Positions 1,252 through 18,674 of a DNA stretch of 33,225 nt are shown piece after piece; the stretch's first letter is position 1, and every line of letters starts with the position of its first letter. The notes under the pieces are model-generated. The model made no database searches. It was not told where the DNA came from and was given only the letters and a program-made list of their open reading frames with translations. The translations under genes were made by a program, and so were the position numbers. The stretch lies in contig SVOG01000019.1 of NCBI GenBank assembly GCA_015066525.1, positions 1 to 33,225 of the forward strand, read 5' to 3'. The stretch is from Oscillospiraceae bacterium. Lineage in GTDB: Bacteria; Bacillota; Clostridia; Oscillospirales; Acutalibacteraceae.

Positions 1252-1955
1252 ACTTCCACCGCCTCTTTCAAATCCAGCGTACCCTTATAAATCGACTTGC
1301 CGCAAATCGCGCCGTAAAGCCCGTTATCACGCAGGGTAATAATATCACCGATATTCGTCACACCGCCCGACGCGGTAATATCACACGAAACAGCGGCATT
1401 CAGTTCGGTCAACTGCGCGACATTCGGTCCGCTGAGGGTGCCGTCCTTGGATATATCGGTATAGATAATCGTGGACACGCCCATATCCTCCATCTGTTTA
1501 GCGAGGTCAATAAAGTGCGTCGTTGAGCCCTCAGTCCAGCCCTCGGTCGCGACAAATCCGTGCTTCGCGTCAATGCCGACGGCAATCAAATCGCCGTATT
1601 CCGTCACCGCCTCGCGGACAAGTTCGGGATTTTTCAGCGCGACGGAGCCGAGAATCACACGGCTGATACCGTGGTTGGCATAGTAGTCAATATCGTTCAT
1701 CGTGCGGATACCGCCGCCGATTTCGACTTTCAGCGCAGTCTGATTTGCCACATCGACAAAGGTCCGGTGATTGACGCGTTTTTTCTGCACGGAGCCGTCG
1801 AGGTCCACCATATGCACCCACGCGGCACCGGCTTTCACAAAGCGCTCAGCCGTTTCGAGCGCGTCATCGGCAACCTGCTCCGCCGTGGCAAAATCGCCCT
1901 TATAAAGGCGTACGGGTTTGCCGTCAATAATATCAATCGCGGGAAAAATCAGCAT
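1239..1955 (-). CDS. hisA: ProFAR isomerase (HisA)
   Basis: HisA converts ProFAR to PRFAR by an Amadori rearrangement on a (beta/alpha)8 barrel. The 238-residue length is standard. The N-terminal strand [18 protein letters not shown] carries the first catalytic aspartate (Asp8), and [14 protein letters not shown] near residue 130 carries the second. Phosphate-binding loops are seen at EIGGGIR (about residue 79) and ASGGV (about residue 195). The SKDGT segment resembles both HisA and the paralogue HisF, but the IDIIDGK start and VDLDGS strand favour HisA. Its ATG overlaps the hisB stop (TAATG). I see no sign that it replaces the missing HisF, since no glutaminase partner is nearby. Confidence 0.93.
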
Positions 1956-2533
1956 TACAGTACTCCTTTGGTAGACAGTACCGAGCCGTCGTCATTCTTC
2001 TTGACGGCAATTTTCAGCGCGTGTGCGACTGCCTTAAAAATCGCCTCAATCTGGTGGTGCGCATTGGTACCGTAAGGTACGTCAATATGCAGGGTTATAC
2101 CCGCATTCGTCGCAAACGCACGCCAGAATTCCTCGGTCACTGCGGTTTCAAAATCGCCGCAGAGTTCCTGCTCAAAAGTTGCGTTAAACACGAGGAACGG
2201 ACGGTTCGAAATATCGAGAATGGCTTTGGCAAGGCTCTCGTCCATCGGCACGGCAAAGCTGCCGTAGCGCTGAATGCCGCTCATATCGCCGAGCGCCTGC
2301 TTAAACGCCTTGCCGAGTGCGATACCCGTGTCCTCAGCAGTGTGGTGCGTGTCGACTTCAAGGTCGCCCTTTACATCAACATCAAGACCAAATCCGCCGT
2401 GGACGCCGAACGCCGTGAGCATATGGTCAAAAAAGCCGATGCCCGTGCTGACCTTCACCGCGCCGCCATCGAGATTCAGCGCAATTTTAATCTGTGTTTC
2501 CTTTGTATTTCTCTCAATTGTTGCAGTTCTCAT
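1955..2533 (-). CDS. hisB: Imidazoleglycerol-phosphate dehydratase (HisB)
   Basis: This is a monofunctional IGP dehydratase of 192 residues, acting late in histidine synthesis. The paired manganese-binding histidine motifs are clear: DTHHTAEDTGIALG around residue 60 and NAHHQIEAIFKA around residue 157, plus the FDHML segment near residue 35. No histidinol-phosphatase domain is fused, unlike enterobacterial HisB. I chose the ATG at 2533 because an AAGAGGTG ribosome site lies just upstream. The frame extends to a TTG at 2551, but that overlaps hisD without gain. The stop overlaps the hisA start by one base. Confidence 0.95.
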   Translation of the reverse strand: MRTATIERNTKETQIKIALNLDGGAVKVSTGIGFFDHMLTAFGVHGGFGLDVDVKGDLEVDTHHTAEDTGIALGKAFKQALGDMSGIQRYGSFAVPMDESLAKAILDISNRPFLVFNATFEQELCGDFETAVTEEFWRAFATNAGITLHIDVPYGTNAHHQIEAIFKAVAHALKIAVKKNDDGSVLSTKGVL

Positions 2534-2543
2534 CGCGCACCTC

Positions 2544-3827
2544 TTATTCAAATCTGACTTTAATGGAATTTGCGTGAGCGGTTAATCCCTCGCTCTCGGC
2601 AAGGGTAATAATATCGTCCTTCGCCTTGCGCAGCTCGGCGCAGGTGTAGTAGATAAACTGGGATTTTTTCGTGAAACTGTCCACGGAAAGCGGCGAGAAA
2701 AATCTTGCCGTGCCGCTTGTCGGCAGGACGTGGTTCGGTCCCGCATAGTAATCGCCGAGCGGCTCGGGTGACCAGTTGCCGAGGAATACGGAGCCGGCAT
2801 TGTCCACCTTGCCTATATATTTCAGCGGCTCGGAAATGCACAACTCGAGATGCTCGGGAGCCAGCTCGTTGGCAAACTCAATCGCCTGCTCAACCGTGTC
2901 GCATACAATAATTTCGCCGAAATTATCGAGGGATTCCTCAATAATCATCTGGCGCTCAAGGCGTTTCACCTGGCGGTCAATTTCGTGAACGGTCTGCTTA
3001 GCGAGTTCGCCCGAGGTGGTAATCAGGATTGCCGACGCCATTTTGTCGTGCTCCGCCTGGCTCATCAAATCAGCCGCAAGGAATGCCGGGTCAGCCGTCT
3101 TATCGGCTACGATGAGAATCTCGCTCGGTCCTGCAACCATATCAATATCCACAATGCCGTAAAGCAGTCGCTTCGCCGTGGCGACAAAGATATTGCCGGG
3201 ACCGACAATTTTATCGACCTTCGGGATTTTCTCCGTGCCGTATGCGAGCGCGGCAACCGCCTGTGCGCCGCCGACCATAAAGACGCGGTCAACGCCCGCA
3301 ATCGCAGCAGCAGCCATAATCTGGGGATTCGGGTTACCGTCCTTACCGGGAGGGGTCACCATAACAATCTCTTTGACCCCTGCGATTTTCGCAGGAACGG
3401 CATTCATCAGTACGGAAGATGGGTACGCTGCCGTTCCGCCGGGTACGTAAATACCCACGCGGTCAAGTCCGCGCACGCGCTGACCCATAATCACGCCGTT
3501 TTCCTCCGTCGTCATAAAGGACTGCTGTGTCTGTCTGCCGTGGAAGCGTTTAATATTCTTCTTCGCTCTGATGAGCGCATTCTTAAAATCATCATCCACC
3601 ATACCGAGATAGGTATACAGTTCGTCCTTCTCGACTACGGTTTTTTTCGGTACGCCGCCGTCAAAACGCACGGTGTACTCGAGCACTGCCGCATCGCCGT
3701 TTTCGCGCACTTCGCGGATAATGGTGGATACGATGTCCACAATTTTCTGGTCGGTTTCGCCCGCACGCTTTTTCAGATTGTCAAGCACTGCGTACTCAGC
3801 TTTGCCGTTTGCCTTCGTAATTTTCAT
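2544..3827 (-). CDS. hisD: Histidinol dehydrogenase (HisD)
   Basis: HisD performs the last two steps of the pathway, oxidising L-histidinol to L-histidine with two NAD. The protein is 427 residues, normal for the family. Landmarks are YVPGGTAAYPSSVLM near residue 127, the VGPGN and AGPSE loops around residues 210-236, SQAEHD near residue 257 (zinc ligands Gln and His), the catalytic PEHLEL near residue 325, and the GDYYAGPNHVLPTSGTAR segment near residue 360 with the last zinc ligands. The start ATG follows a perfect AGGAGG, 12 bases after the hisZ-hisG fusion gene. All key residues look intact. Confidence 0.97.
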   Translation of the reverse strand: MKITKANGKAEYAVLDNLKKRAGETDQKIVDIVSTIIREVRENGDAAVLEYTVRFDGGVPKKTVVEKDELYTYLGMVDDDFKNALIRAKKNIKRFHGRQTQQSFMTTEENGVIMGQRVRGLDRVGIYVPGGTAAYPSSVLMNAVPAKIAGVKEIVMVTPPGKDGNPNPQIMAAAAIAGVDRVFMVGGAQAVAALAYGTEKIPKVDKIVGPGNIFVATAKRLLYGIVDIDMVAGPSEILIVADKTADPAFLAADLMSQAEHDKMASAILITTSGELAKQTVHEIDRQVKRLERQMIIEESLDNFGEIIVCDTVEQAIEFANELAPEHLELCISEPLKYIGKVDNAGSVFLGNWSPEPLGDYYAGPNHVLPTSGTARFFSPLSVDSFTKKSQFIYYTCAELRKAKDDIITLAESEGLTAHANSIKVRFE

Positions 3828-3839
3828 AATATCCTCCTA

Positions 3840-5453
3840 TTACACCTGAGAAGCAAGTTCCAAGTCATTCAGAAATGCCTCAATCTCTGCCTTGCGCAGT
3901 TTCATTGACGCCATATTGACAATCACTCTCGCCGAAATCGGAAGAATCTCCTCGACAACCTCGAGTCCGTTTTCCTTCAAAGTGGAGCCCGTTTCGACGA
4001 TATCCACAATGCCGTCGGCAAGTCCGAGAAGCGGCGCGAGTTCCACGCTGCCCTCAATCTTAATCACCGCGACATCCATCCCCTTGCTCTCAAAGAATTC
4101 TTTGGCAACCTTGGGGTATTTCGAGGCAACAACCTTGCGCTTATATCCCGCAAAGAAATCCGTTCCCTTCGGGCATGCGAGTGCGAAGCGGCATTTGCCG
4201 ATACCAAGGTCAAGCACCTCGTAAAAGGATGAGCCGTGCTCGACAATCGTGTCCTTGCCGACAATGCCGATGTCGCACACGCCGTGTTCTACATAAGTTA
4301 TCACATCGGGCGCTTTGGAGAGTACCGCCTCATATTTATCAACGGGAAGAATCAGCCGCCTGCCCTTATTCTCAAGGGCGGAGGTGTCGAGCCCCATTGT
4401 CTGAAACAGTTTCACCGAACTCTTCTCGAGTCTGCCCTTAGTCAGCGCAATTCTCAGCGGGCGCTCCACATTGATGACCTCGTGCATCGCTTCGCACAGC
4501 GCCGACACCTCGACCGCAAAGCCGATGGCGGGCGCGTCCAGTCCGAACTCACCGAGCAGATTATCATATCTACCGCCCGACAGCACCGTCAGTCCGCTGC
4601 CCTCGGCATAGCCGTGGAAGATAACGCCCGTGTAGTAATTCGAGCGGTTGACAAGACCGAGGTCGAGCATAATAGACTCGCCGAGTCCCTTGTCACAAAG
4701 GGCGTCAAATACCTGCTTGAGATAATCGAGAGCGTCGGACGCTTTTGTATCGGCGTAAAGTTTCTTCGCCTCATCAATCACCTCAATACCGCCGAACAGG
4801 CGCGGCAGGCGGCGGATAATCCGCGTTTCCGCCGTATCCCCGAAGGTATCGAGCAAATCACCGAGCGCCGCATAATTCTTGCCTTCAATGAGTTTACAAA
4901 TCTGCTTTTTCGTATCGGTGTCGATAGGCATATTCTCCAGGATAGCGCCGAAGAACGCGGCGTTTCCTATCTCAATTTTGAACGAGTTGAGGTCGCAGCG
5001 CATCAGCGACTGCGCCGCCATCGAAATGACCTCGACATCCGCCTCCATCGAGCCGTCGCCTATCAGTTCGACGCCGCTCTGGGCAATTTCATTCGGCACG
5101 CCGTACAAATCCCTGCCGCGCACATACACATTCTGGTTATAATAGAGGCGCACGGGGAGATTTTCGCCGCCGAGCCTCGTCGCCACCATACGCGCAATCG
5201 GCATCGTATTATCGGGGCGCAGCACAGTAGTCCTGCCCTTGGAGTCCGTCAGTTTGAACATCTCGTCGGGCGAGATACCCGTGTTGTCGCTCTCGAACAC
5301 GTCAAAGAATTCGATGGACGGAGTAATCACCTTGCGATACTCATTTTCCTTGAAAAGCTCTGCGAGGACGCGCTCTACCTGGCGTCTGTCGTCGCATTCC
5401 TCAAAGAGGTAGTCGCGGCTGCCCTCGGGTGTAATTTTGGAATATTTCTTCAT
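3840..5453 (-). CDS. hisZG: Fused ATP phosphoribosyltransferase: HisZ regulatory domain joined to HisG catalytic domain
   Basis: One 537-residue frame holds two normally separate proteins. Residues about 1-328 are HisZ, a histidyl-tRNA-synthetase paralogue: ITPEGSRDYL at the start, class II motif 2 (RPDNTMPIARMVATRL, about residue 80) and motif 3 (GGRYDNLLGEFG, about 293). Residues about 331-537 are short-form HisG: LRIALTKGRLEKS, DIGIVGKDTI and the PRPP loop in VDIVETGSTLKENGL (about 483-497). Together they catalyse and regulate the first step of histidine synthesis. The junction lies near position 4460 with no stop or frameshift. I prefer the ATG at 5453 (MKKYSKITPEG) over a GTG 18 bases upstream. 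It is the first gene of the operon, behind a promoter and palindrome. Separate hisZ and hisG genes are the usual arrangement. Confidence 0.94.
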   Translation of the reverse strand: MKKYSKITPEGSRDYLFEECDDRRQVERVLAELFKENEYRKVITPSIEFFDVFESDNTGISPDEMFKLTDSKGRTTVLRPDNTMPIARMVATRLGGENLPVRLYYNQNVYVRGRDLYGVPNEIAQSGVELIGDGSMEADVEVISMAAQSLMRCDLNSFKIEIGNAAFFGAILENMPIDTDTKKQICKLIEGKNYAALGDLLDTFGDTAETRIIRRLPRLFGGIEVIDEAKKLYADTKASDALDYLKQVFDALCDKGLGESIMLDLGLVNRSNYYTGVIFHGYAEGSGLTVLSGGRYDNLLGEFGLDAPAIGFAVEVSALCEAMHEVINVERPLRIALTKGRLEKSSVKLFQTMGLDTSALENKGRRLILPVDKYEAVLSKAPDVITYVEHGVCDIGIVGKDTIVEHGSSFYEVLDLGIGKCRFALACPKGTDFFAGYKRKVVASKYPKVAKEFFESKGMDVAVIKIEGSVELAPLLGLADGIVDIVETGSTLKENGLEVVEEILPISARVIVNMASMKLRKAEIEAFLNDLELASQV

Positions 5454-5468
5454 TATTTTCACTCTTTT

Positions 5469-5504
5469 CACTTTAGCGTGCTAATATGCTAACACAATAA
5501 AGTG
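5469..5504. promoter_or_regulatory. 36-bp interrupted palindrome, candidate his operator
   Basis: The sequence reads CACTTTA-N2-GTG-N-TA-N2-AT-N2-TA-N-CAC-N2-TAAAGTG, symmetric about its centre with 26 of 36 positions matching. It covers the -10 box and much of the spacer of the his promoter and ends 15 bases before the start codon. Because most of it lies upstream of the expected transcript start, a DNA operator fits better than an RNA hairpin. The regulator is unknown. Confidence 0.5.
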
Positions 5505-5533: not shown

Positions 5534-8500
5534 TTAGAATCCAAATAAGGATATTTGCTTGCTCTCGGGTAAATCGCCGAGTGCTCCCGCGGCTCTGAGC
5601 GCATCGACGACCGATTTGCCCACGCCCGGCTCATTGGCAAGGTCGTCGGAGGCAATAAAGCCCTCGGGATTGCGCTTCACCGCGTCCGCGATGGCAATCG
5701 CCGCTTTGTCGCCGATACCGTCAATCGCCGAGAACGGCAGACGAATCATGCCCTCTTCTATCTGGTAAACACGCCAGTCGGATTTATATAAATCCACGGG
5801 CAAAAATTCATATCCGCGGGCGAGCATCTCAATCACAATCTGGTTGACAACATAGGTGTCCTCCTCTTTCTGCGATACCTCGATGCCGTGATTCTTCTTA
5901 TTCTTATACTCCTCCATCTTTGCCTTGACGGCAGCCTTGCCCTGCACGGCTGCCACGGCGTCAATTGCGCCGCCGCGTACCGTGAAGTAGGCGGAGTAAA
6001 ACTGAATCGGATAATAAATCTTGTACCACGCGATACGCAGCGCCGCGATAACATAAGCGGCGGCGTGCGCCTTGGGGAACATATACTTAATCTTATAGCA
6101 CGAGTCGATATACCACTGCTCAACGCCGATTTTCTTCATCGCGTCCTCGTAGGGCGGAAGTTCCTTCGGCGCTTTACCCTTACGGGTGTACTCCATTATC
6201 TTGAAGCAGTCCTTCTTAGACAGCGGTGACTCCTCACCGGTGTCGCGCTCGTATTTCTCCGCGACGTGGATGAGGTGCGTCATAATATCATCACGGCAGC
6301 CGATTACATCCGAGATGCCGCAGGTGCCGTTTTGAATCAACTCCTGCGCGTTGCCGAGCCAAACATCCGTGCCGTGCGACAGCCCCGAAATCTGCAGGAG
6401 GTCGGCAAAGGTTTTCGGCTGTGCCTCGGTCAGCATTCCGATAACAAACGGGGTGCCCATTTCGGGAATCGCGAGCGTACCCGTCGGGCAGTCGATGTCG
6501 TCAGGGTTTACGCCGATGGGCTCGGTCGATGTAATGAGTTTATAGAGATTCGGGTCGGATAAATCGACGTCCATAACGGGAATCCCCGTCGCATCCTCGA
6601 GATACTTATAGAGCGTCGGATTATCGTGGCCGAGTTCGTCGAGTTTCAAGAGGGTGTCGTGGAGTGAATTCTTAAAGTCAAAATGGGTGGTATACGTTCC
6701 CTTCTTCTCGTCGTTCGACGGGTACTGAATCGGGGTAAAGTCCTCGACCGTATACTCGTCGGGCACGACGACCATTCCACCGGGATGCTGACCCGTGGTA
6801 CGCTTAATACCCGTACAGCCGACTGTCAGCCGGTCAATTTCAGCCTTCGGTGTCACGGCGAGCAAATCACGCTCTTCGAGATATTTCACGACATAGCCGT
6901 AAGCGGTCTTATCCGCCACGGTCGCCATCGTACCCGCCTTAAAGACATACTCCTTACCGAAGAGTTCTTCAGTAAAGCGGTGCGAGCGGGACTGATACTC
7001 ACCCGAGAAATTCAGGTCGATATCGGGCTCCTTGTCGCCGTCGAAACCGAGGAAGGTTTCAAACGGGATTTCGTGGCCGTCACGCTTCATCGGTGCGCCG
7101 CACTCGGGGCAGTTCTTCGGCGGGAGGTCAAAGCCGGAGCCATACTCACCGTTGAGGAAAAACTCGGAATGCTTACAGTTCTTGCAGTAATAATGCGGTG
7201 CGAGGGGGTTAACCTCGGAGATACCGCCGAAATGCGCGGCAAGCGAGGAACCTACCGAACCACGCGAGCCGACAAGATAGCCGTTTCGCTCGCTCTCCTC
7301 AACCAGTCGCTTGGCGATAACATAGAGCACGCCGAAACCGTGGGAGATGATGGAATTGAGTTCTCGCTCAAGTCGCGCGGCAACATATTCGGGTACGGGG
7401 TCGCCGTAAAGGTCCTTTGCCATATCCCAGCATTTCTTCGTCAACTCTTCGTCCGCGCCGTCAATATGCGGCTGGAAGGTGCCGGGCGGAATCGGCGGGA
7501 TATCATCCCACACCATATCGGCGATTTTGTTCGGGTTGTCGATGACAAATTCCTTCGCTCTGTCGCCCGCCCAGGCAAAGTCGCTGAGCATTTCATCGGT
7601 TGTCTTGAAATACAGCGGCGCCTGCTGGTCGGCGTCGTCGAATCCCTTGGACGCCATCAGAATGGCGCGGAATTTTGCATCCTTCGGGTCGATGAAATGA
7701 ACGTCTCCCGTCGCCACCGTCATCTTGCCGAGGGTATCGGCAAGTTCGACAACCTTCTTATTGATATTTATCAAATCCTCCTCGCTGTTGATATGCTGAT
7801 GGATATCACGCTCGGAGCGAATCATAAAGGCATTGTTTCCGTTTGGCTGGATTTCGAGATAGTCATAAAATGCCGCCAGCCGGAGGAGTTCCTCATCGCT
7901 TTCACCGCGGAGAATTGCCTGAATAATCTCGCCCTGCTCGCAGGCGGAGCCGACGATGATGCCGTCGCGCTTTTTGGCAAGCATGGACTTCGGAATCAGC
8001 GGTCTGCCCTTAAAGGTGCGGACATTGGAATGCGAAATCATCTCGTAGAGATTCTTTCGTCCGTATTTGCGCTCCTCCTTCGGGACGGAGTCGTCAAGCG
8101 AATTATCCTCCTTCACGAGCAGGATAATATGGTGACGGCGAAACTCCTTCAGTTTCATATTCATAAAATCGGGATAGAGGCTGTCGTCGACGAGATAGCC
8201 CTCCATACCGAGAATCAGTTTAATACCGTTTGCTTTTGCGGCGGCATACGCTTCGGGAAGCGCCTGCACGACGCCGTGGTCAGTGACGGCAATCGCCTTG
8301 TGTCCCCACTTGGCGGCACGCTTAACGAGTTCCTTCGGCGCGGTCATTCCGTCCATATCGGACATCGTGGTATGGAGATGCAGTTCCACGCGCTTTTCCT
8401 CAGCGGTGTCCATCTTCTCCGCCTTTTGCACCTTCTCGATGGAGGTCGGGCGCAGGACGGATTCATTGGAGAATTTATCGAATTGGTAGGAGCCGTTAAT

Positions 8501-9349
8501 AATCAACGTTCCGCCGCCTTCCACCACTTTGAGGAGGGGCTCGACGACATTATTGCGGTCGAACACCTTAACCGTGATGGAGGAGGTATAGTCCGAAATA
8601 TCGAAGGTCAGAATCTTGCTGTCACCGCGGCGGGTGTCGCGGCACTCGCTCTTCAGAATATCGCCCCAGACAGTAATCACGCCATCGTCGTACTTCACAT
8701 CCTTAATTGGCTTGGGAAGTTCACGGATATTTCTGCCCATCACGACCTTGCGGGTGTCGGCATAGAGCGGAGTGTCGCCGAGAATGGTATGCACGGCGTT
8801 TTTCTCCTGCTCTTCCCTGACAGCGCGCTCCTTCTCCTTCTTCTGCTCAAAAGCTTCATGCACTGCCTTCTCGACATCGAAGGTCTGCACCTGCATAAAG
8901 GAAACATCGAGGTCGATGTCAAACGCGTCGTAAATCAACTTGGATATTTCTTTATCCACGCCCTGGCTTTCGAGCAGTTCCTGACCGCCGTTTTTCAGAA
9001 AGACGGTGAGGGTATTGTCCTCGATTTCCGCCTCGCACGCATCGAAGAAGCCGTTGACCATCTGATTCGTGAAGCGGATGGGAGAAATAATCTTTTCAAT
9101 CTCGTCGACCGAAAAAAGATTCTTAGGATACTTCACTTTTACCTCAGCCTTATGGAGCTGCAGTCCGTCGGCAATCCCCTTTTGCACGCGCTCGATAACG
9201 TCGGCACCGACAAGGCGGTCGCTTCTGAGTTCAATCAGCGCATACCGTGTATCGCGTTTTACGACGAGGCGGGTGATTTCGGCAAAGCCGATTTGCGCGG
9301 CGTCGCTCTCGCTGATATATGTATTAAAAAAATTGTAAAATTCGTTCAT
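5534..9349 (-). CDS. polC: DNA polymerase III PolC lacking the 3'-5' exonuclease domain
   Basis: PolC is the replicative polymerase of low-GC Gram-positive bacteria. The 1271 residues show an N-terminal domain, an OB-like region (about 215-305), a PHP domain (HLHTTMSDMDG at 324, VTDHG at 355, VGSACEQGE at 466, ATGDVHF at 546), a zinc module (CKNC at 722, CPEC at 747), the catalytic PDIDLNFSGEYQ at 775 and a C-terminal clamp-binding QISLF. In Bacillus PolC a DEDD exonuclease of about 165 residues interrupts the PHP domain just after the GMEVNLVDD-type strand. Here GMEGYLVDD (381-389) runs after about 16 residues straight into HHIILLVKED, with no FDVETTG motif. The short length (usual about 1430) fits a clean domain loss. 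The ATG overlaps the ispG stop. Polymerase and PHP residues look intact. Confidence 0.95.
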   Translation of the reverse strand: MNEFYNFFNTYISESDAAQIGFAEITRLVVKRDTRYALIELRSDRLVGADVIERVQKGIADGLQLHKAEVKVKYPKNLFSVDEIEKIISPIRFTNQMVNGFFDACEAEIEDNTLTVFLKNGGQELLESQGVDKEISKLIYDAFDIDLDVSFMQVQTFDVEKAVHEAFEQKKEKERAVREEQEKNAVHTILGDTPLYADTRKVVMGRNIRELPKPIKDVKYDDGVITVWGDILKSECRDTRRGDSKILTFDISDYTSSITVKVFDRNNVVEPLLKVVEGGGTLIINGSYQFDKFSNESVLRPTSIEKVQKAEKMDTAEEKRVELHLHTTMSDMDGMTAPKELVKRAAKWGHKAIAVTDHGVVQALPEAYAAAKANGIKLILGMEGYLVDDSLYPDFMNMKLKEFRRHHIILLVKEDNSLDDSVPKEERKYGRKNLYEMISHSNVRTFKGRPLIPKSMLAKKRDGIIVGSACEQGEIIQAILRGESDEELLRLAAFYDYLEIQPNGNNAFMIRSERDIHQHINSEEDLININKKVVELADTLGKMTVATGDVHFIDPKDAKFRAILMASKGFDDADQQAPLYFKTTDEMLSDFAWAGDRAKEFVIDNPNKIADMVWDDIPPIPPGTFQPHIDGADEELTKKCWDMAKDLYGDPVPEYVAARLERELNSIISHGFGVLYVIAKRLVEESERNGYLVGSRGSVGSSLAAHFGGISEVNPLAPHYYCKNCKHSEFFLNGEYGSGFDLPPKNCPECGAPMKRDGHEIPFETFLGFDGDKEPDIDLNFSGEYQSRSHRFTEELFGKEYVFKAGTMATVADKTAYGYVVKYLEERDLLAVTPKAEIDRLTVGCTGIKRTTGQHPGGMVVVPDEYTVEDFTPIQYPSNDEKKGTYTTHFDFKNSLHDTLLKLDELGHDNPTLYKYLEDATGIPVMDVDLSDPNLYKLITSTEPIGVNPDDIDCPTGTLAIPEMGTPFVIGMLTEAQPKTFADLLQISGLSHGTDVWLGNAQELIQNGTCGISDVIGCRDDIMTHLIHVAEKYERDTGEESPLSKKDCFKIMEYTRKGKAPKELPPYEDAMKKIGVEQWYIDSCYKIKYMFPKAHAAAYVIAALRIAWYKIYYPIQFYSAYFTVRGGAIDAVAAVQGKAAVKAKMEEYKNKKNHGIEVSQKEEDTYVVNQIVIEMLARGYEFLPVDLYKSDWRVYQIEEGMIRLPFSAIDGIGDKAAIAIADAVKRNPEGFIASDDLANEPGVGKSVVDALRAAGALGDLPESKQISLFGF

Positions 9350-10386
9350 TACAGTTTATCAATCTCTTTCATTAATTCGTCGAGGAGCTTGCCCTCGTCT
9401 ACCTTGCGCAATATCTCGCCCTTTTTGAAAATCAGTCCGCAGCCGTCGCCGCCCGCGATGCCGATATCCGCTTCGCGCGCTTCGCCGGGTCCGTTTACGA
9501 TACAACCCATCACGGCAACTTTAATCGGTTTCTTCACATCGCGCAGGCGCTCTTCAACCTGGTTAGCAAGACCGACGAGGTCAATCTTCGTTCTGCCGCA
9601 GGTCGGGCAGGAGATGAGGTAAGGGGTATCGTTTTTCAGTCCGATAGCCTTGAGAATGTCAAAGGCGGCATAGACCTCCTTGAGCGGGTTATCGGTCAGG
9701 CTGACACGAATCGTGTCGCCGATACCGTGCGTCAGAAGTGAGCCGATACCGACCGCCGATTTAATAATACCCATACGCTCGGTGCCCGCCTCGGTCACGC
9801 CGAGATGGAGCGGGTAATCGCATTTTTCGTGGGCAAGTTCATACGCCTGAATCATCGTATTTACGTTGGAGGATTTAATCGAAATGACGATGTCCTCAAA
9901 GTCGAATTTCTCGAGCAGGGAGGCGTGGTAGAGCGCACTCTCGACCATCGCTTCGGGCGTGGGCGAGCCGTATTTGGCAAGAATCTCCTTCTCGAGCGAG
10001 CCGGAGTTTACGCCGATACGAATCGGAATCTGCTTTTGCTTACAGATATCCGCCACCGCCTTTACCCTGTCCTCGGCACCGATATTGCCGGGGTTTATAC
10101 GGATTTTATCAATACCGCGCTCAGCAGCGCCGAGTGCGAGCTTATAATCAAAATGAATATCGGCAACGAGCGGCACGCTGACAGCGTTTTTAATCGGTTC
10201 CACGAGGGAAAGCGCATCGTTGTCGGGAATGGCAAAGCGAATAACCTGGCAGCCCGCTTTTTCAAGCTCGACCGCCTGCTTCACGCTGCCTTCAATATCG
10301 CTTGCGGGAACATTGAGCATACTCTGGACGAGCACGGGCTCCCCGCCGCCTAAGAATGTGTTACCTAATTTAACTTTTCTTGTCAT
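9349..10386 (-). CDS. ispG: 4-hydroxy-3-methylbut-2-enyl diphosphate synthase (IspG/GcpE)
   Basis: IspG is the iron-sulfur reductase that makes HMBPP in the MEP isoprenoid pathway. The 345-residue length suits the bacterial two-domain form. A TIM barrel fills the N-terminal two thirds (VLVQSML near residue 18, DIHFDYKLA near 75, KIRINPGNIG near 93). The C-terminal domain has the [4Fe-4S] ligands CPTC near residue 261 and MGCIVNGPGE near residue 294. The start follows AAGGAG. With dxr in the same operon and uppS using the product chain, the locus couples isoprenoid supply to cell-wall lipid carrier synthesis. Its stop overlaps the polC start. Confidence 0.97.
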   Translation of the reverse strand: MTRKVKLGNTFLGGGEPVLVQSMLNVPASDIEGSVKQAVELEKAGCQVIRFAIPDNDALSLVEPIKNAVSVPLVADIHFDYKLALGAAERGIDKIRINPGNIGAEDRVKAVADICKQKQIPIRIGVNSGSLEKEILAKYGSPTPEAMVESALYHASLLEKFDFEDIVISIKSSNVNTMIQAYELAHEKCDYPLHLGVTEAGTERMGIIKSAVGIGSLLTHGIGDTIRVSLTDNPLKEVYAAFDILKAIGLKNDTPYLISCPTCGRTKIDLVGLANQVEERLRDVKKPIKVAVMGCIVNGPGEAREADIGIAGGDGCGLIFKKGEILRKVDEGKLLDELMKEIDKL

Positions 10387-10425: not shown

Positions 10426-11463
10426 TTAATGAATCAGCTTGGATATATCCGAAAAGGTGATGACCGTCATCAGTCCAAGTAGCAGAATCAGTCCCGCGCC
10501 GTTGATTGCCCACTCCCATTTGGGCGGGAGTTTGCGTCTGAAAATGCCTTCAAAGATAAGAAGGAAGAGCCTCCATCCGTCGAGTGCGGGTATCGGGAAA
10601 AGGTTAAATAGTCCGACATTAATAGTCAGCAGCGCCATAATCTTCAGCATCGATGGGATGCTGACCTTCACCGCCTCGGACACGATGCCTACCGCGCCGA
10701 CGGGACCGCTGAGGTCGGACACTCTGAAATGCCCTGCAATCAGGTCGTGCACCGAGAGAAATACCATTCTGCCGTAGGATATCCACTGCATCAAGCTCTC
10801 GCCGAGCACATTCGGAACGGTCTTTTCCTTACCGAGGAGCCAGAAGTCGAGTTTGATAAACTGTCTGCCGTCGTCCTCCTCGGTATCGAAGGTGACGGAG
10901 AGATTCTCTTCCCTGCCGTCACGCAGCACCGTCATATCGAGGGTGCCGTCGGTACTGCGGGTCAGACCCGTCGTAATATCCGTTGCGGAATAGACGCGCA
11001 TACCGTCGATAACTTTAATCTTATCCCCTGCCTGCAGGGTTTGGGAGCTGACGGCATTTTTATCGAATCTGGCAATCTCGGTCGTTCCCACGAGATTCTG
11101 CGAACAGACGATAATCGACGTAATGACAAGTCCTAAAATCAGATTCATCACAGCGCCTGCAACAACGATAAAAATGCGCTGAATGACTTTCTTATTCGAA
11201 AAGGCATTCTCGTCGTCGCTGTCCTCGTCCTCGCCCTCCATCGCGCAGTATCCGCCAAAGAGGATGAAACGCAGCGAATAGGTCGTCTCCCCGCGTGTGA
11301 ACTGCACGAGTTTCGGACCCATACCGATGGAAAATTCATTTACTTTAACCCCCATCAGGCGGGCGGCTACAAAATGCCCGCCCTCGTGAATCACGATAAT
11401 CAGTTCAAAAAACAGTATCGCAATCAACACGGGGTACACTGTATTCCAGATATTTGCTAACAC
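10426..11463 (-). CDS. rseP: Site-2 intramembrane zinc metalloprotease RseP/RasP
   Basis: This M50 protease cleaves transmembrane substrates such as anti-sigma factors. The 345 residues have the zinc motif HEGGH at residues 26-30 in the first membrane helix, a second helix near 95-117, a PDZ-like domain around 125-205, and C-terminal helices with NLFPIPALDGWR near residue 287, whose Asp295 is the third metal ligand. The family usually has LDGG; here it is LDGW, an unusual substitution beside the ligand. The start is a GTG with GGAG eight bases upstream, overlapping the end of dxr by seven bases. The dxr-rseP order is the classic Firmicute arrangement. Confidence 0.94.
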   Translation of the reverse strand: MLANIWNTVYPVLIAILFFELIIVIHEGGHFVAARLMGVKVNEFSIGMGPKLVQFTRGETTYSLRFILFGGYCAMEGEDEDSDDENAFSNKKVIQRIFIVVAGAVMNLILGLVITSIIVCSQNLVGTTEIARFDKNAVSSQTLQAGDKIKVIDGMRVYSATDITTGLTRSTDGTLDMTVLRDGREENLSVTFDTEEDDGRQFIKLDFWLLGKEKTVPNVLGESLMQWISYGRMVFLSVHDLIAGHFRVSDLSGPVGAVGIVSEAVKVSIPSMLKIMALLTINVGLFNLFPIPALDGWRLFLLIFEGIFRRKLPPKWEWAINGAGLILLLGLMTVITFSDISKLIH

Positions 11464-12608
11464 TTAACCGTCTCCATAACATATTGCCTTGCCGCCCGGT
11501 CTGCATCGAGCACATCCTGCAAGGTAAAATCAGTAATATCGGGCGCACTTTTCATCGCCTCGTTATTAAGATATGCAATATCGCCGAATTTAATTTTACC
11601 GTCAAGGAATAATCTGACACTTTCCTCGTTTGCGCCGTTTGCAGCGGCAGGGTGAACGCCGCCAAGTGCAATCGCATTTTTGCAGACGTTGATGCACTTA
11701 AAGGTGTCGTAATCCGGCTCATAGAATGTTAGTTTACCGTAGTCCGCAAGGCTCAGATACTGCACGGGGCTCGGCTTTCTGTCGGGATAGGTCAGCGCAT
11801 ACTGAATCGGGATGCGCATATCGGGCACGCCAAGCTGCGCAATCATCGAATTATCCTGATACACAATCGCCGAATGGAGCACCGATTCGCGGTGAATGAC
11901 AATCTCGATATCCTCATTCGGCATATCGAAGAGCCACTTCGCCTCGATAAACTCGAGACCTTTATTCATCATCGTAGCCGAGTCGATGGTGATTTTAGCG
12001 CCCATATCCCAGTTCGGGTGTTTCAAAGCGTCCGCAGCGGTGACGTTTTCGAGTTCCTGCTCCGTCTTGCCAAAGAAGGGACCGCCCGACGCGGTCAGGA
12101 TAATTTTCTTCACCGCTTTTTTCTCCGGACAGCCCTGCAACGACTGGAAAATCGCGGAATGCTCGCTGTCTACGGGGAGGATGTCCACGCCCATATCGCG
12201 CGCTAAATTTGTGACGAGGTGTCCGCCTGCCACAAGGGTTTCCTTATTCGCAAGGGCGATGGTTTTCCTCGCCTTAATCGCCTCAAGCGTCGGCTGGAGT
12301 CCGACCATACCGACAACGGAATTCAGCACGGTATCCGCGCCGTCATATACCGCGCATTCTATCAGTCCGTCCATCCCGCAGACAACGCGTGTGGCGGTGT
12401 CTGCTATTTTTGTTTTTAACTCCTTTGCGGCGTCTTCGTTCATCATACACACAAGTGCGGGGTGAAATTCCCTCACCTGCTCTTCCATCAGCGAAACGTT
12501 TGAGGAAGCGGTGAGGCATTTTACCGTATAGCCATGCATACGGCAGACGTCGAGCGACTGCGTGCCGATGGAGCCCGTGGAGCCGAGGAGTGAAATATTC
12601 TTCGTCAT
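11457..12608 (-). CDS. dxr: 1-deoxy-D-xylulose 5-phosphate reductoisomerase (Dxr/IspC)
   Basis: Dxr commits deoxyxylulose phosphate to the MEP pathway, producing MEP with NADPH. The 383-residue length is normal. The N-terminal Rossmann loop is LLGSTGSIGTQSLDV (residues 7-21). The catalytic region has ANKETLVAGG near residue 119, VDSEHSAIFQ near 146 with the metal-binding Asp and Glu, ILTASGGPFFG near 170, and MNKGLEFIEAKWLFDM near 213 with the third acidic ligand. The C-terminal segment PAAANGANEESV near 320 is also typical. It lies five bases after cdsA and overlaps rseP. Confidence 0.97.
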   Translation of the reverse strand: MTKNISLLGSTGSIGTQSLDVCRMHGYTVKCLTASSNVSLMEEQVREFHPALVCMMNEDAAKELKTKIADTATRVVCGMDGLIECAVYDGADTVLNSVVGMVGLQPTLEAIKARKTIALANKETLVAGGHLVTNLARDMGVDILPVDSEHSAIFQSLQGCPEKKAVKKIILTASGGPFFGKTEQELENVTAADALKHPNWDMGAKITIDSATMMNKGLEFIEAKWLFDMPNEDIEIVIHRESVLHSAIVYQDNSMIAQLGVPDMRIPIQYALTYPDRKPSPVQYLSLADYGKLTFYEPDYDTFKCINVCKNAIALGGVHPAAANGANEESVRLFLDGKIKFGDIAYLNNEAMKSAPDITDFTLQDVLDADRAARQYVMETVKC

Positions 12609-12612
12609 AGTC

Positions 12613-13482
12613 TTACCTTACAATAAACTGCGCTACTACAAAAGTAAGCGGAAGGGTGAAAAGGGATGAGTCAAATCTGTCCATCACGCCGCCGTGGCCG
12701 GGGAAAATCTTGCCGAAATCCTTGACATCAAAATTCCTCTTCAGCACGGACGCGGTGAGGTCGCCCATCATACTGAGAAAAGCGATAAACGGTGCCGCCG
12801 CAAGAAGGACGGTCGCCTGCGTCATTGTCAGTCGGAAATCCGCAAAGTGATTATACAGCACGATGGCAACGGCGTTCAGAATCAGGCTGAACACAATGCC
12901 GCATACCGCGCCCTCCACTGTTTTCTTCGGCGAAATCTTCGGTGACATCTTGGTCTTGCCGATTGCCATACCGCCGAGCTGCGCGCCGACATCGGTGCCG
13001 AGCGCACTGATAAGCGCATAGAAAATCAGATAGACACCAATCTGGTTGCCGTAACCCGTGGTATCGCGCAGCACGCCGAAGAGCGCAAAGCCGCTCGGTA
13101 CGAGAAGGCTCGCCACAATCGTAATCGCGACATCCTCAAACTTCGTGTGCTCGTAATCCTTCAGCATCGCGAGGAAATAGGCGATGACAATGACGATGAC
13201 ATATACCGCCTTCGGCAGGAAGTTATAGAATTTCAGCAGCGTATACGTCGGCACAAACGGCTCGAGAATGCTCGCGCTCGAGAAAAGCGGCACGATGAAC
13301 GCCACGATAACGCCGAATACGAACAGAAATTTATTACTGATTTTTGCGCAGTGCATAATCTCCCCCGCTGCTATCGCTGAGAAAACGGCAATGACTGCGA
13401 TAAAGAGCGGCGTATAAATCTGCCACACGACAAGCGCAAGCAGTGCCAGCAGCACTGCGGCGGTTAATACTCTTTGTTTCAT
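12613..13482 (-). CDS. cdsA: Phosphatidate cytidylyltransferase (CdsA)
   Basis: CdsA makes CDP-diacylglycerol from phosphatidate and CTP, the branch point of phospholipid synthesis, in the cytoplasmic membrane. The 289 residues are strongly hydrophobic, with about eight membrane helices. The CTP_transf_1 signature is clear near residues 236-268: GDLTASVLKRNFDVKDFGK followed by FPGHGGVMDRFDS, with the conserved acidic residues in place. A second conserved stretch, KTMSPKISPKKTVEGA, is near residue 177. The start follows AAGGAG. It sits between uppS and dxr in the usual order. Confidence 0.95.
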   Translation of the reverse strand: MKQRVLTAAVLLALLALVVWQIYTPLFIAVIAVFSAIAAGEIMHCAKISNKFLFVFGVIVAFIVPLFSSASILEPFVPTYTLLKFYNFLPKAVYVIVIVIAYFLAMLKDYEHTKFEDVAITIVASLLVPSGFALFGVLRDTTGYGNQIGVYLIFYALISALGTDVGAQLGGMAIGKTKMSPKISPKKTVEGAVCGIVFSLILNAVAIVLYNHFADFRLTMTQATVLLAAAPFIAFLSMMGDLTASVLKRNFDVKDFGKIFPGHGGVMDRFDSSLFTLPLTFVVAQFIVR

Positions 13483-13523
13483 ATTATTACTCCTTAACTA
13501 TTACGAATTATAATTACTTTCAG

Positions 13524-14243
13524 TTATCCACCGAAGCGGCGGTTGCGGTTTTCGAAATCGGTCAGAGCCGCATATAAATCCTTCTTCGTAAAATCGGGCC
13601 AGAGCACATCGCTGTACCAGAATTCGCTGTAAGCCGCTTGCCACAGGAGAAAGTTCGAAAGGCGTTGCTCGCCCGACGGACGGATAATCAAGTCGCAATC
13701 GGGCACGGTGTAAAGATTATCGCTGATGTCATGCTCGGTGATTTCGGTTTTGCCGCTTCGCATCAGTTTATTCACGGCGCTGACAATCTCCTGTCTGCCG
13801 CCGTAATTCACCGCGAGGTAAACGGTTGTACCCGTATGCGCAGCAGTCTCCGCCTCCGCCTCGTCCATCAGGTCGAGGAGTTCCTGCGAGATACCTTCGC
13901 GCTCGCCGATGAATTTAATCTTACTGTTTTTTGCCTTCGCCATATCCGCTTTCGCCTCGAGGAGATATTCCTTAAACAGCTGCATCAGCGCGTCCACCTC
14001 TTCCTTCGGGCGCTTCCAGTTCTCGGTGGAAAACGCGTAGAAAGTCACATAGCGGATGCCGAGGTTCGCGCACTCGTCGGAAATGGTACGAAAGATATTG
14101 GCGCCCGCCTTATGTCCCGCGGAACGCGGCAATCCCCTCTTCTTTGCCCATCTGCCGTTGCCGTCCATAATAATGCCGAGATGATTCGGCAGGACGTCAA
14201 ACGAAGTACGGATTTCTTTATCCTTTTTGGAAAAAAGTGCCAT
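13524..14243 (-). CDS. uppS: Isoprenyl (undecaprenyl) diphosphate synthase
   Basis: This cis-prenyltransferase extends farnesyl diphosphate with isopentenyl diphosphate to the C55 lipid carrier used for peptidoglycan and surface polymers. The 239 residues contain the family signatures: HLGIIMDGNGRWAKKRG near residue 21 with the catalytic Asp, YAFSTENWKRP near residue 68, and the C-terminal RPSGEQRLSNFLLWQ near residue 188 followed by EFWYSDVLWPDF. The start follows AAGGAG. Just upstream, between frr and uppS, lies a GAAA-tetraloop hairpin. Confidence 0.96.
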   Translation of the reverse strand: MALFSKKDKEIRTSFDVLPNHLGIIMDGNGRWAKKRGLPRSAGHKAGANIFRTISDECANLGIRYVTFYAFSTENWKRPKEEVDALMQLFKEYLLEAKADMAKAKNSKIKFIGEREGISQELLDLMDEAEAETAAHTGTTVYLAVNYGGRQEIVSAVNKLMRSGKTEITEHDISDNLYTVPDCDLIIRPSGEQRLSNFLLWQAAYSEFWYSDVLWPDFTKKDLYAALTDFENRNRRFGG

Positions 14244-15717: not shown

Positions 15718-18609
15718 TTATTCGTGATTTACTTCTTCGGTTTGTTCCTGTTCTGCTTCTGCCGCTGCAACCGCCTCAGCCTCTTTGGCAGTGAGGGTTT
15801 TCAGATATCCGTAATCCCTGCCGTTGATAATGCCGTCGCCGTTAAAATCGAGATAGGAGGTCAAATCGACTTCCTCGGTGTGCTCGGTTTCTTCGCCTTC
15901 GTCGACGGTAATTAGTCCGGTGCGATGCGGCGCAGTGCCTACGACATCAAAGTTCCAGAGCGCCTTGACTTCGGCGATGGGTTTCGTCGTCGTTCTGAAG
16001 CAGTGCGGGCAAAGGAAGGTCACGCCGTCCTTGGTCACCTTACCGCTGAAGGTAAAGCCGTCGTCCGTCTGCTCCGCCTCAATCGGCAGGCTGTTGATAA
16101 ACGCAAGCACTGCCGCATTGCCGATATAATCGCTGACATTGACACCCGGAACATCGGGAATTTCAATTTCCTGGGAAAGTCTTGCGTTAATGGCGTCGTT
16201 GGTGATGGTGCCCGTATAGCGCCACATATGTCCGAGCGCGGGCGATACCTCGACCGTGCCGACGGTATTACAGATGGTGCACTGTCTGACTTCGCGCGCG
16301 CCGAGTACGCAGGTCGCGGGCGTGGTGGTCGTTACGGTATAATTGCCGTCCGTCCACTCCTTATGGACAATCGTGCCTGCCTCGCGGGAATTACACCTCG
16401 TGCACTGCGGCGTCGAGAGGACGTGGCCGGGTTTGTCCTCATCAGTGATTTCGGTTTCCACCGGCTGATAATCGTGGCCAAGCGCCGCAATCGTGCCCGT
16501 ATACGCCTCGTTGCAACGGTCGCAGACGCCGTGACCCGCACCGTCCTTTGTACAGGTAGGCGCTGTGTCAACGACCCAGGTACCCTCTTTCGCAATATGA
16601 CCGAGTGCCTCGACACTATCCGTCTTAGACGCGGAACAGCGCGAGCATTTATAGAAGATGGAGCCGGCTTCCGTACAGGTGGCGTCGGTGCTCTTGCTGT
16701 CGTCTCTGACAAAGTCGTGACCGAGCGCCGGGATATATTCTACCGTCGTGTACTGGCAGTTATGGCAGGCTTTATTGATTCTGCCCCTGGTCGTACAGTC
16801 GGGCTCGGTGCGACCCGTTTCATATAAATCGTGTTCACCGCGGGCGGGAACCGTCTGCGTACGCAGGGTACCGCAGAGATTGCATCTGTCGAGTTCCACG
16901 CCGGGAAGTTCGCAGTTATCGTAGGTGGTTGAGGTCGGCGTGTAATAGCCGTCAATCCACTCGTTGTGCACATACTCCTCCACCTCTTCGCCGCAGGTGC
17001 TGCAGATAAACACTTTATGGGTATGTCCGTCCTCTTCGCTGTCCCAAACCTCCGAGGGATTCTCAGCATCATAGGTATGGCCCGTCGCTTTTATCGTTTC
17101 GGTCACCGTATTGCCGCATTCGGTACAGGTACCCGTACGGGTGCCGTCCTCGGTGCAGGTTGCCTTCTTCGTCACCTTCCAGGTTTCCACCGTGTGATGC
17201 GGGAGCAAGGGGCGCAATTCGCGCTTATTACAGCCTTCGACATTACACTTATAGTATTCGCCGCCGTACTGGGTACAGTTCGCTTCTCTGATAGTAGTTT
17301 TCGAATAATAACCGTCAACCCAGACGTAAATCGGCTCTTCACTGAGCGTCGACCAGTCGAAATCCCTGAGTCTGCTAATGAGGCTGATAAGACTTGTGGT
17401 ATCAAAATCAATCGCCGATGTGTCAATATTCGTCGGGTCGATACCGCTCGTGTACTGATGGACGGCGTCGGTCTTGGTTTCATTGCAGCGGGAGCAGACA
17501 TAGGTCTTATAAATATGTCCGTCCTCTTTCGTACAATCCACTTCCTCAACCGGCTCTCCCCACTCGTGACCGAGGGCGTCAATCTCCGTTTCAAGAACAA
17601 CCGCGCCGCAATCGTCGCAAATTGTCTGCTGTACGCCCTTTTCCTCGCAGGTGGGTTCCTTGGAGATAACGGTATGGGTATTCTCGTGCGCACACGCGTC
17701 GATGGATTCAAAGGCGTAGCCGTACTGCGTGGCAAAGCTCTGCGCCGTCGAGCCGGCATGACCGCGAATGGTAATGCTCTGGTCGGAGCCCTCGCAGAAA
17801 TTATCCTTAAACTCCGTACTCGGATTATGAATCGTAATCGTCGTCAGGAACTTACAGGTCTTAAACGCCAGTCTCTCAACTGTCGTAATATTCTCCGGCA
17901 GCTCAACCGTCACAATCTCACTATCCATAAATGCCGAAAGCGGAATGGTGGTGATGGTATCGTTCCAGTCGATTGTCTTCATCTTCGTCTTGGAAAACGA
18001 CATCGTACCGATGGTGGCAAGATTGGCACCCATCGTCAGACGCGTTAATCCCGTGCAGTCAAAGAACGCATAATTACCGATGGTGGTAACGCTGTCGGGA
18101 ATGATAATCCGCTTGAGCGCCGTGCACTGATAGAATACAAAAGGCTCAATTTCTGTCAGATTAGCCGGCAGTGTAATACTCTCGAGTGCGGGGCAGGATT
18201 CAAAGCAGCCGTAGGACAGCATCTCGGTACTGCCGGTATATTTCGGCGCCCCCGTGCCCTTCAGTTTCGTCAGTGTGGACGGAAGGGAGACGCTGGTCAG
18301 AAGCGGACAGTTATAAAAGTTCGAATAGCCGATTTCGGTAATGCCTTCATTTACCACAACCTTTACCAGCTCTGACTTATAGTCGTTCCACGGCGCGGCG
18401 GTACTCTTCGTCTTATAATAGTTCTTAGTAGCACCCGTGCCGCTGATGGTCAGCGTTTTCGTACTCGTGTCATAACTCCAGGTGGCATTCGTGCCGCACG
18501 AACCCGAGGTCGCGGCAAAAGCCGTGCCGATATTCAGCGACATCAGAGTCGTCACCATCAGCACCGCGGCAAAGAAAGCCGCTAGGAATCTCCTTGTAAA
18601 TTTCTTCAT
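15718..18609 (-). CDS. Secreted BspA-like leucine-rich-repeat protein with many CxxC repeats and a dockerin-like tail
   Basis: This is a 963-residue surface or secreted protein. Residues 1-32 form a signal peptide (MKKFTRRFLAAFFAAV, ending near AFAA). Next comes the GSCGTNATWSYD..LTISGTG segment typical of BspA proteins (about 37-60), then LRR_5-type repeats (about 85-300), for example LPANLTEIEPFVFYQCTALK. From about 305 to 860 there are roughly a dozen repeats carrying a CxxC or near-CxxC pair (CDDC, CSRC, CTEC, CSTC, CNLC, CDRC), many followed by an ALGH-type motif. The C-terminus has one EF-hand/dockerin-like repeat, DFNGDGIINGRDYGYL, and an acidic tail. The ATG at 18609 has an AGGGTG site; the frame's upstream extension runs through the promoter. 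Likely roles are adhesion or surface display; the function is not known. Confidence 0.88.
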   Translation of the reverse strand: MKKFTRRFLAAFFAAVLMVTTLMSLNIGTAFAATSGSCGTNATWSYDTSTKTLTISGTGATKNYYKTKSTAAPWNDYKSELVKVVVNEGITEIGYSNFYNCPLLTSVSLPSTLTKLKGTGAPKYTGSTEMLSYGCFESCPALESITLPANLTEIEPFVFYQCTALKRIIIPDSVTTIGNYAFFDCTGLTRLTMGANLATIGTMSFSKTKMKTIDWNDTITTIPLSAFMDSEIVTVELPENITTVERLAFKTCKFLTTITIHNPSTEFKDNFCEGSDQSITIRGHAGSTAQSFATQYGYAFESIDACAHENTHTVISKEPTCEEKGVQQTICDDCGAVVLETEIDALGHEWGEPVEEVDCTKEDGHIYKTYVCSRCNETKTDAVHQYTSGIDPTNIDTSAIDFDTTSLISLISRLRDFDWSTLSEEPIYVWVDGYYSKTTIREANCTQYGGEYYKCNVEGCNKRELRPLLPHHTVETWKVTKKATCTEDGTRTGTCTECGNTVTETIKATGHTYDAENPSEVWDSEEDGHTHKVFICSTCGEEVEEYVHNEWIDGYYTPTSTTYDNCELPGVELDRCNLCGTLRTQTVPARGEHDLYETGRTEPDCTTRGRINKACHNCQYTTVEYIPALGHDFVRDDSKSTDATCTEAGSIFYKCSRCSASKTDSVEALGHIAKEGTWVVDTAPTCTKDGAGHGVCDRCNEAYTGTIAALGHDYQPVETEITDEDKPGHVLSTPQCTRCNSREAGTIVHKEWTDGNYTVTTTTPATCVLGAREVRQCTICNTVGTVEVSPALGHMWRYTGTITNDAINARLSQEIEIPDVPGVNVSDYIGNAAVLAFINSLPIEAEQTDDGFTFSGKVTKDGVTFLCPHCFRTTTKPIAEVKALWNFDVVGTAPHRTGLITVDEGEETEHTEEVDLTSYLDFNGDGIINGRDYGYLKTLTAKEAEAVAAAEAEQEQTEEVNHE

Positions 18610-18645
18610 ATCTATCACCCTGTTTAGATAAATTACCCCATATAA

Positions 18646-18674
18646 AATATAGCACACTTTTTGTCATAAATCAA
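18646..18674 (-). promoter_or_regulatory. Promoter of the BspA-like gene
   Basis: On the minus strand TTGATT (18669-18674) is followed after 17 bases by TATATT (18646-18651). It lies about 37 bases before the chosen ATG and overlaps the promoter region of the divergent plus-strand gene. Confidence 0.6.

Follow-up and report, generated by a model that had tools for sequence, protein, structure and literature searches.

An intact PolC without its DEDDh exonuclease in an Oscillospiraceae bacterium, set among repeated changes of exonuclease state in its order

The stretch of DNA analysed here (the window) covers 33,225 nucleotides of contig SVOG01000019.1 from an Oscillospiraceae bacterium (assembly GCA_015066525.1; order Oscillospirales, family Acutalibacteraceae), and our subject is its polC gene, which encodes a PolC-type DNA polymerase III of 1271 amino acids (aa) that lacks the exonuclease domain (“exo-less”). 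The original prediction, made from the sequence alone, had described an intact open frame of 1271 residues with PHP, polymerase and clamp-type motifs, and this description holds: the frame (5534..9349) runs on the minus strand from an ATG start at 9349 down to 5534, Pfam models match the domains, all nine PHP metal residues are present and the protein carries a QISLF tail. Both PolC equivalog models of NCBIfam recognize it above their cut-offs (TIGR01405, 1241 bits vs. 1043; NF001688, 1375 vs. 873). From the N-terminus, with all features on the minus strand, the protein comprises the PolC N-terminal domain II at residues 83–181 (8807..9103; PF11490, 29.8 bits); an OB domain at about residues 219–315 (8405..8695), placed by alignment with the start of 3f2b and labelled on our assumption that the usual PolC architecture applies; an unsplit PHP domain at about residues 319–560 (7670..8395; PF02811 match at 322–495), within which a 16-residue linker (residues 390–405, 8132..8182) stands at the usual DEDDh exonuclease site; a polymerase core at about residues 561–1170 (5840..7669; PF07733 and PF17657) with D776, D778 and D904, which we take to be the catalytic Asp residues; an HhH motif at residues 1179–1264 (5558..5815; PF14579); and the C-terminal QISLF (residues 1265–1269, 5543..5557), read from the sequence and presumably the clamp-binding motif, with similar tails in ten aligned PolCs. 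The three Asp residues are kept in every PolC row covering these positions (89 of 100 rows cover all three, 11 cover two). The N-terminal region and OB domain ahead of the PHP domain (the OB by alignment alone), together with the HhH and clamp motifs at the C-terminus, are PolC features, and the one that the window protein lacks is the DEDDh insert in the PHP domain, which is treated as PolC-defining in PMC11963600.

It had also been noted that GMEGYLVDD (residues 381–389) runs after about 16 residues into HHIILLVKED, the DEDD exonuclease being gone, and Pfam, profile and alignment all bear this out. Exactly 16 residues separate the two strings, the second starting at residue 406, and in an alignment with related PolCs, 33 exo-containing proteins of the order (15 extend through the polymerase and 18 are partial) carry the exonuclease precisely where the window PolC has its linker. 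RNase_T is not among the Pfam matches of the window PolC at E up to 0.001, and a profile of the PolC exonuclease, based on 30 domains from the order, gave 262 bits on its single positive control but matches nothing with an E-value of 10 or less in six-frame translations of the window and of 65 named relatives; the Pfam scan and the six-frame search thus reject exonuclease motifs elsewhere in the protein or window. An assembly deletion at the junction is rejected as well, since 52 of the 65 named loci are full-length frames of 1253–1314 aa from which the domain is absent. PolC is continuous across the junction, with no insert, in 35 of the 37 genomes of the window genus (G009 and G028, with C-terminal pieces alone, are uninformative), and the PolC of Eubacterium coprostanoligenes ATCC 51222 is also exo-less, so the junction is no assembly artefact. 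It is confirmed that the window PolC is an intact PolC without the DEDDh exonuclease.

The gene order uppS-cdsA-dxr-rseP-ispG-polC-hisZG is conserved in all four named relatives examined for synteny, and the window gene is therefore the resident polC and no extra copy. In the window, again on the minus strand, ispG lies directly upstream (9349..10386; PF04551), preceded by rseP-dxr-cdsA-uppS (10426..14243; Pfam and NCBIfam matches), and a fused HisZ-HisG of 543 residues follows directly downstream (3840..5471; HisZ-like at 17–325, HisG at 386–538); two further proteins in the synteny comparison are IGPD (HisB) and His_biosynth (HisA-like), by Pfam. The source assembly is 1.64 Mb in 66 contigs and an estimated 74% complete. 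Its named relatives are E. coprostanoligenes ATCC 51222, Clostridium sp. CAG:678 and CAG:217, and metagenome-assembled genomes from rumen or gut; PolC length and score are identical between E. coprostanoligenes and one genome of the window genus (G005). A search for a co-resident DnaE found a full-length protein of 1141 residues in the source genome, which we take as DnaE1, since its PHP domain is intact and Clostridia pair PolC with DnaE1. The genome thereby shows the combination that characterizes exo-less PolC, namely a PolC without exonuclease insert beside a DnaE1.

The suspicion that such enzymes were already catalogued was well founded: exo-less PolC as such is already published, and the window gene adds one more example. 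According to PMC3919608, which counts these proteins within the PolC group, the insert is absent in 6% of PolCs and in 16% of those within PolC+DnaE1 systems; the exo-less copies, bar one, come from Clostridia and Negativicutes, where PolC is found beside DnaE1 as in the window genome, and the question is raised whether DnaE1 then performs replication. The available portion of that account contains no count of origins and no decaying intermediates, both of which are given here, and among the matches listed in titles and abstracts of the open-licence literature there is no publication counting independent losses or reporting a dead exonuclease in PolC. Compared with classical PolC (G. kaustophilus 3f2b, against which the window protein scores 1027 bits, and E. 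faecium 9qpc), the order of OB, PHP, polymerase and HhH and the catalytic Asp residues are the same, whereas the inserted exonuclease is missing and position 8 of the PHP site is Asp rather than the Asn of G. kaustophilus. The interest is in the pattern around the window gene: recurrent removal of the exonuclease, a genus with a vestige of it, a PHP site that stays constant, and one PolC-less clade.

Exo-less and exo-containing PolCs occur side by side in the family. A PolC match is present in 72 of the 90 sampled genomes; the 67 of these PolCs that were examined comprise 25 exo-less, 41 exo-containing and 1 degenerate protein (G442). One more genome (G244) was counted as exo-less from an unbroken PolC match, and the remaining four are fragments (G449, G476, G479 and G484), of which G449 and G479, where the domain is visible, count as exo-containing in the DnaE1 tree. 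G503, whose frame is split, is exo-containing with the exonuclease present and was left out of the PolC tree, and the fragment in G446 was scored exo-less. Outside the family, 23 genomes of the order divide into 18 with an exo-containing PolC, 3 exo-less ones (G054, G059 and G037) and 2 with no match, and in a 394-genome sample of the order the two states are mixed likewise among the matches listed. In the exo-containing class, 57 of 58 rows show all three exonuclease motif patterns and the other (G448) deviates by spelling in one (AHRACDD). Some genomes hold a second PolC-like gene, either as short frames of about 700–840 aa (G506:C11, G068:C9, G043:C2 and G489:C16) or as longer copies (G034 and G020).

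Mapping exonuclease loss on a tree, which the original prediction had proposed, rejects a single origin and puts the number of state changes at about ten. A quick tree of 100 PolC cores, built without the trait columns, requires 11 changes of the exo-less label, of which well-supported branches force at least 10; a quick tree of DnaE1 (83 rows) requires 13, and there too at least 10 are forced. Constraining together the 25 exo-less PolCs in a set of 57 rows hand-picked from the 100 costs a log-likelihood difference of 837 (approximately unbiased test, p-AU 9e-41). Some changes may be regains by transfer, so the figure of ten counts changes of state and not strictly losses; we infer that most of them were losses.

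A possible intermediate is found in one genus, g184. In its member G442 (99% complete), PolC is a full-length frame (locus L252, 314–4627) whose insert scores 23–26 bits against the exonuclease profile, and the inserts of its genus mates G505 (L400) and G506 (L381) reach 42 and 39 bits, vs. 251–262 for four neighbours. Under what we take to be the standard motif names, alignment of the three shows motif I (D.E) and the motif III His gone and the motif III Asp not kept, so that the motif II Asp alone aligns, while all nine PHP residues are kept. In the PolC tree these proteins lie near the exo-less pair G282 and G409 and near exo-containing PolCs. The PolC of these three species thus holds a vestigial exonuclease in frame, a state seen in one genus alone within the sampled genomes, beyond which no search was aimed.

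What, then, proofreads in the window bacterium? The original prediction had offered a separate protein, the PHP domain or reduced proofreading; the PHP domain is now the best supported, with nine of nine metal residues, and a separate protein does not stand as a general rule. The metal pattern of PHP-proofreading C-family polymerases is given as HHDHEH[C/H]DH in PMC12926913, and the window PolC has precisely this pattern (H324, H326, D333, H358, E383, H407, C470, D549 and H551). The nine residues are present in 99 of the 100 PolC rows, and the last row, at a contig edge, keeps the six that it covers. Asp549 pairs in the 3f2b alignment with position 8 of the G. kaustophilus site, which is Asn743 (PMC3666897); as described in PMC5636811, G. 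kaustophilus PolC has no PHP exonuclease and one changed residue is blamed, and the DEDDh exonuclease is inserted in a loop beside the PHP site. In the window PolC, the distance from E383 to H407 is 24 residues, similar to that between Taq E72 and H95. The nine-residue site and the short uninterrupted loop are shared with the DnaE1 proteins of Mycobacterium tuberculosis and Thermus, which are PHP proofreaders; the differences are the DnaE architecture of those enzymes and that PHP activity in the window PolC is predicted from its sequence.

We therefore favour, with moderate confidence, the reading that the window PolC is an active replicase proofread in cis by its own zinc PHP site, with the PHP of DnaE1 as redundancy. 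The inserted DEDDh exonuclease would have been deleted from the resident replicative PolC, with a short loop like that of DnaE left behind in its PHP domain; the zinc-dependent PHP site, supposing that it cuts DNA and suffices, would proofread as in Mycobacterium DnaE1; and the PHP of the co-resident DnaE1 may act as a second safeguard. Such redundant proofreaders would explain the repeated loss of DEDDh in the order, and Clostridia mostly have three apparently active ones according to PMC12926913 (PHP in PolC, PHP in DnaE1 and DnaQ in PolC). Of 83 DnaE1 rows, 78 have a complete PHP site. Three of the five exceptions are shortened rows (G432, G464 and G474, the last starting late from frame calling); a fourth, from the PolC-less G473, has a His to Tyr change. 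The fifth comes from G445, a 1.1 Mb genome whose DnaE has a broken PHP site (HHNDERYNY; L373), whose exo-less PolC (L195) keeps an intact one, and whose sole RNase_T match lies in a 283-residue frame; the PolC PHP would here be the only complete C-family proofreading site found.

Several observations weigh against this reading. The nine PHP residues are equally invariant in exo-containing PolCs (58 of 58), so their conservation is no response to exonuclease loss; the PHP site was in place before the loss, which speaks of redundancy and not of a new adaptation. The PHP domain has a structural role in E. coli (PMC3666897), and PolC could retain it for its structure or on other grounds. Compared at matched core identity, exo-less PolCs resemble one another in the PHP domain just slightly more than exo-containing ones do. 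The outright loss of polC in relatives, described below, fits a less essential PolC, and the G445 case is one 96% complete assembly with a fast-evolving PolC (end branch 0.70, beside 2.02 for its DnaE). Finally, strong matches to stand-alone exonucleases (E at most 2e-28, frame under 480) are commoner in exo-less (3 of 26) and PolC-absent (3 of 7) than in exo-containing genomes (1 of 41) of the family, in a hand count uncorrected for kinship and leaving out G444 (59% complete, state unknown).

These last counts bear on a possibility that we consider very unlikely, namely that a stand-alone DnaQ-like exonuclease serves the exo-less PolC in trans. The search for such a protein did return one in the source genome, of 213 aa with DEDDh-type motifs, between gap-like and aroF-like genes. 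Against a role in trans, the majority of exo-less family genomes have no strong solo match, some solo proteins have apparent BRCT domains, and the copy in G463 sits beside genes read as an integrase and phage-type regulators. In a tree of 13 solo exonucleases and 30 PolC exonuclease domains, the two groups are separated with 99/99 support (the bootstrap was not fully settled and some solo rows are long), which rejects the idea that the solo protein is an escaped PolC domain. Longer DnaQ-like frames of about 300 residues (286–332) are found in 31 of the 37 genus genomes by a hand count, with sequences read for 16 of the 31. Their best model, in the two proteins scanned, is the KapD-like NF005838, whose cut-off of 169 bits is not reached (75 and 56 bits); being KapD-like and common in exo-containing family genomes too, this protein is rejected as a genus-wide replacement.

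Could the cell simply do without proofreading in PolC, tolerating a higher error rate with the help of mismatch repair? Exo-less genomes of the family are somewhat smaller (median 1.8 Mb, n = 22, vs. 2.3 Mb, n = 37; p 0.015; genomes at least 90% complete, uncorrected for kinship), in keeping with this, but in none of the PolC rows examined are the PHP residues lost, and we regard the idea as extremely improbable. The PHP-proofreading reading, for its part, takes PolC to be in use, and rates of evolution agree. The ratio of nonsynonymous to synonymous substitution (dN/dS) between the window PolC and nine relatives is 0.02–0.05 in the polymerase and 0–0.08 in PHP-N (7 of 9 pairs computable for each; saturation affected many of the other dS values). 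By PolC/DnaE1 ratios (G445 excluded), exo-less PolC does not evolve clearly faster: the pairwise median is 0.82 for exo-less vs. 0.71 for exo-containing proteins and the terminal-branch ratio 0.55 vs. 0.57 (p 0.09). Purifying selection without a clear speed-up indicates that exo-less PolC is in use.

These results also count against the proposal, which answers the question raised in PMC3919608, that DnaE1 with its own PHP domain is now the main replicase and proofreader and PolC a secondary enzyme on its way out, which would let PolC lose its exonuclease and, in one clade, vanish. Its evidence is the loss of whole polC. Among the 66 family genomes at least 90% complete, 7 have no PolC above the DnaE cross-hit level (rechecked at 1e-5), and in an eighth case (G504) PolC is a contig-edge fragment alone. 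As a control for gaps, 5 of the same 66 have no DnaE1 beyond PolC cross-hits (G431, G435, G454, G461 and G483; completeness 92–99%), so that counts of PolC absence alone prove little and assembly gaps must be allowed for. These five DnaE1 absences may themselves be assembly gaps; one of the genomes, G461, would have an exo-less PolC alone, without a DnaE1 or RNase_T match. Synteny is more telling, as 6 of the 7 PolC-less genomes have a contiguous cdsA-dxr-rseP-ispG followed by other genes at the polC site, which rejects a mere assembly gap for these six; in the seventh, G457, no ispG was found, and its lack of PolC may be a gap. On the DnaE1 tree, the six cluster with two genomes of unknown state in a single clade, nested in a well-supported 25-row group that also holds the window genus (12 exo-less, 6 PolC-less, 4 exo-containing and 3 unknown). 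One clade inside a group prone to exonuclease loss thus appears to have lost polC itself. That DnaE1 has become the main replicase nevertheless seems rather unlikely to us: some PolC sequence is present in all 37 genomes of the window genus, and in G445 it is PolC that retains its PHP site, the DnaE there having a broken one and a very long branch.

Returning to the PHP site as proofreader, we can see a wider sequence of events as quite possible, if tentative, in which DEDDh decays (the g184 stage) and is removed about ten times independently, the zinc site of the PHP domain, the ancestral proofreader, takes over again, and in one clade PolC then gives way to DnaE1. The order would then appear to reverse the trend described in PMC5636811, where DEDDh took over from PHP proofreading at least three times, and to do so repeatedly, in a setting where exo-less PolCs have close exo-containing relatives and a vestigial exonuclease is preserved. 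PMC12926913 gives as a rule that in Pol III alpha the PHP domain rather than the DnaQ proofreader gets inactivated, to which genus g184 seems to be an exception. The question of who proofreads in PolC+DnaE1 bacteria becomes directly testable, as a deposited commensal strain exists. There is a practical side too: PolC was selected by its RNaseT insert, according to PMC11963600, when modelling gut commensals spared by ibezapolstat, and exo-less enzymes would be left out by such a rule.

A few further observations concern genomes outside the main comparison and the rest of the window. In G045, from another family, ispG is followed directly by hisZ-hisG-hisD, the window order minus polC, an arrangement not found in the other three genomes of that family examined for synteny; two separate frames there match what the window has as the fused HisZ-HisG. 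Five other searched genomes of the family of G132 have no PolC, and G132 itself has a broken PolC-like remnant with stops (L262; contig 98, about 1947–3133) on a 4.4 kb contig. Beyond the polC neighbourhood, the window encodes a BspA-type leucine-rich repeat protein of 979 residues on the minus strand (15718–18657).

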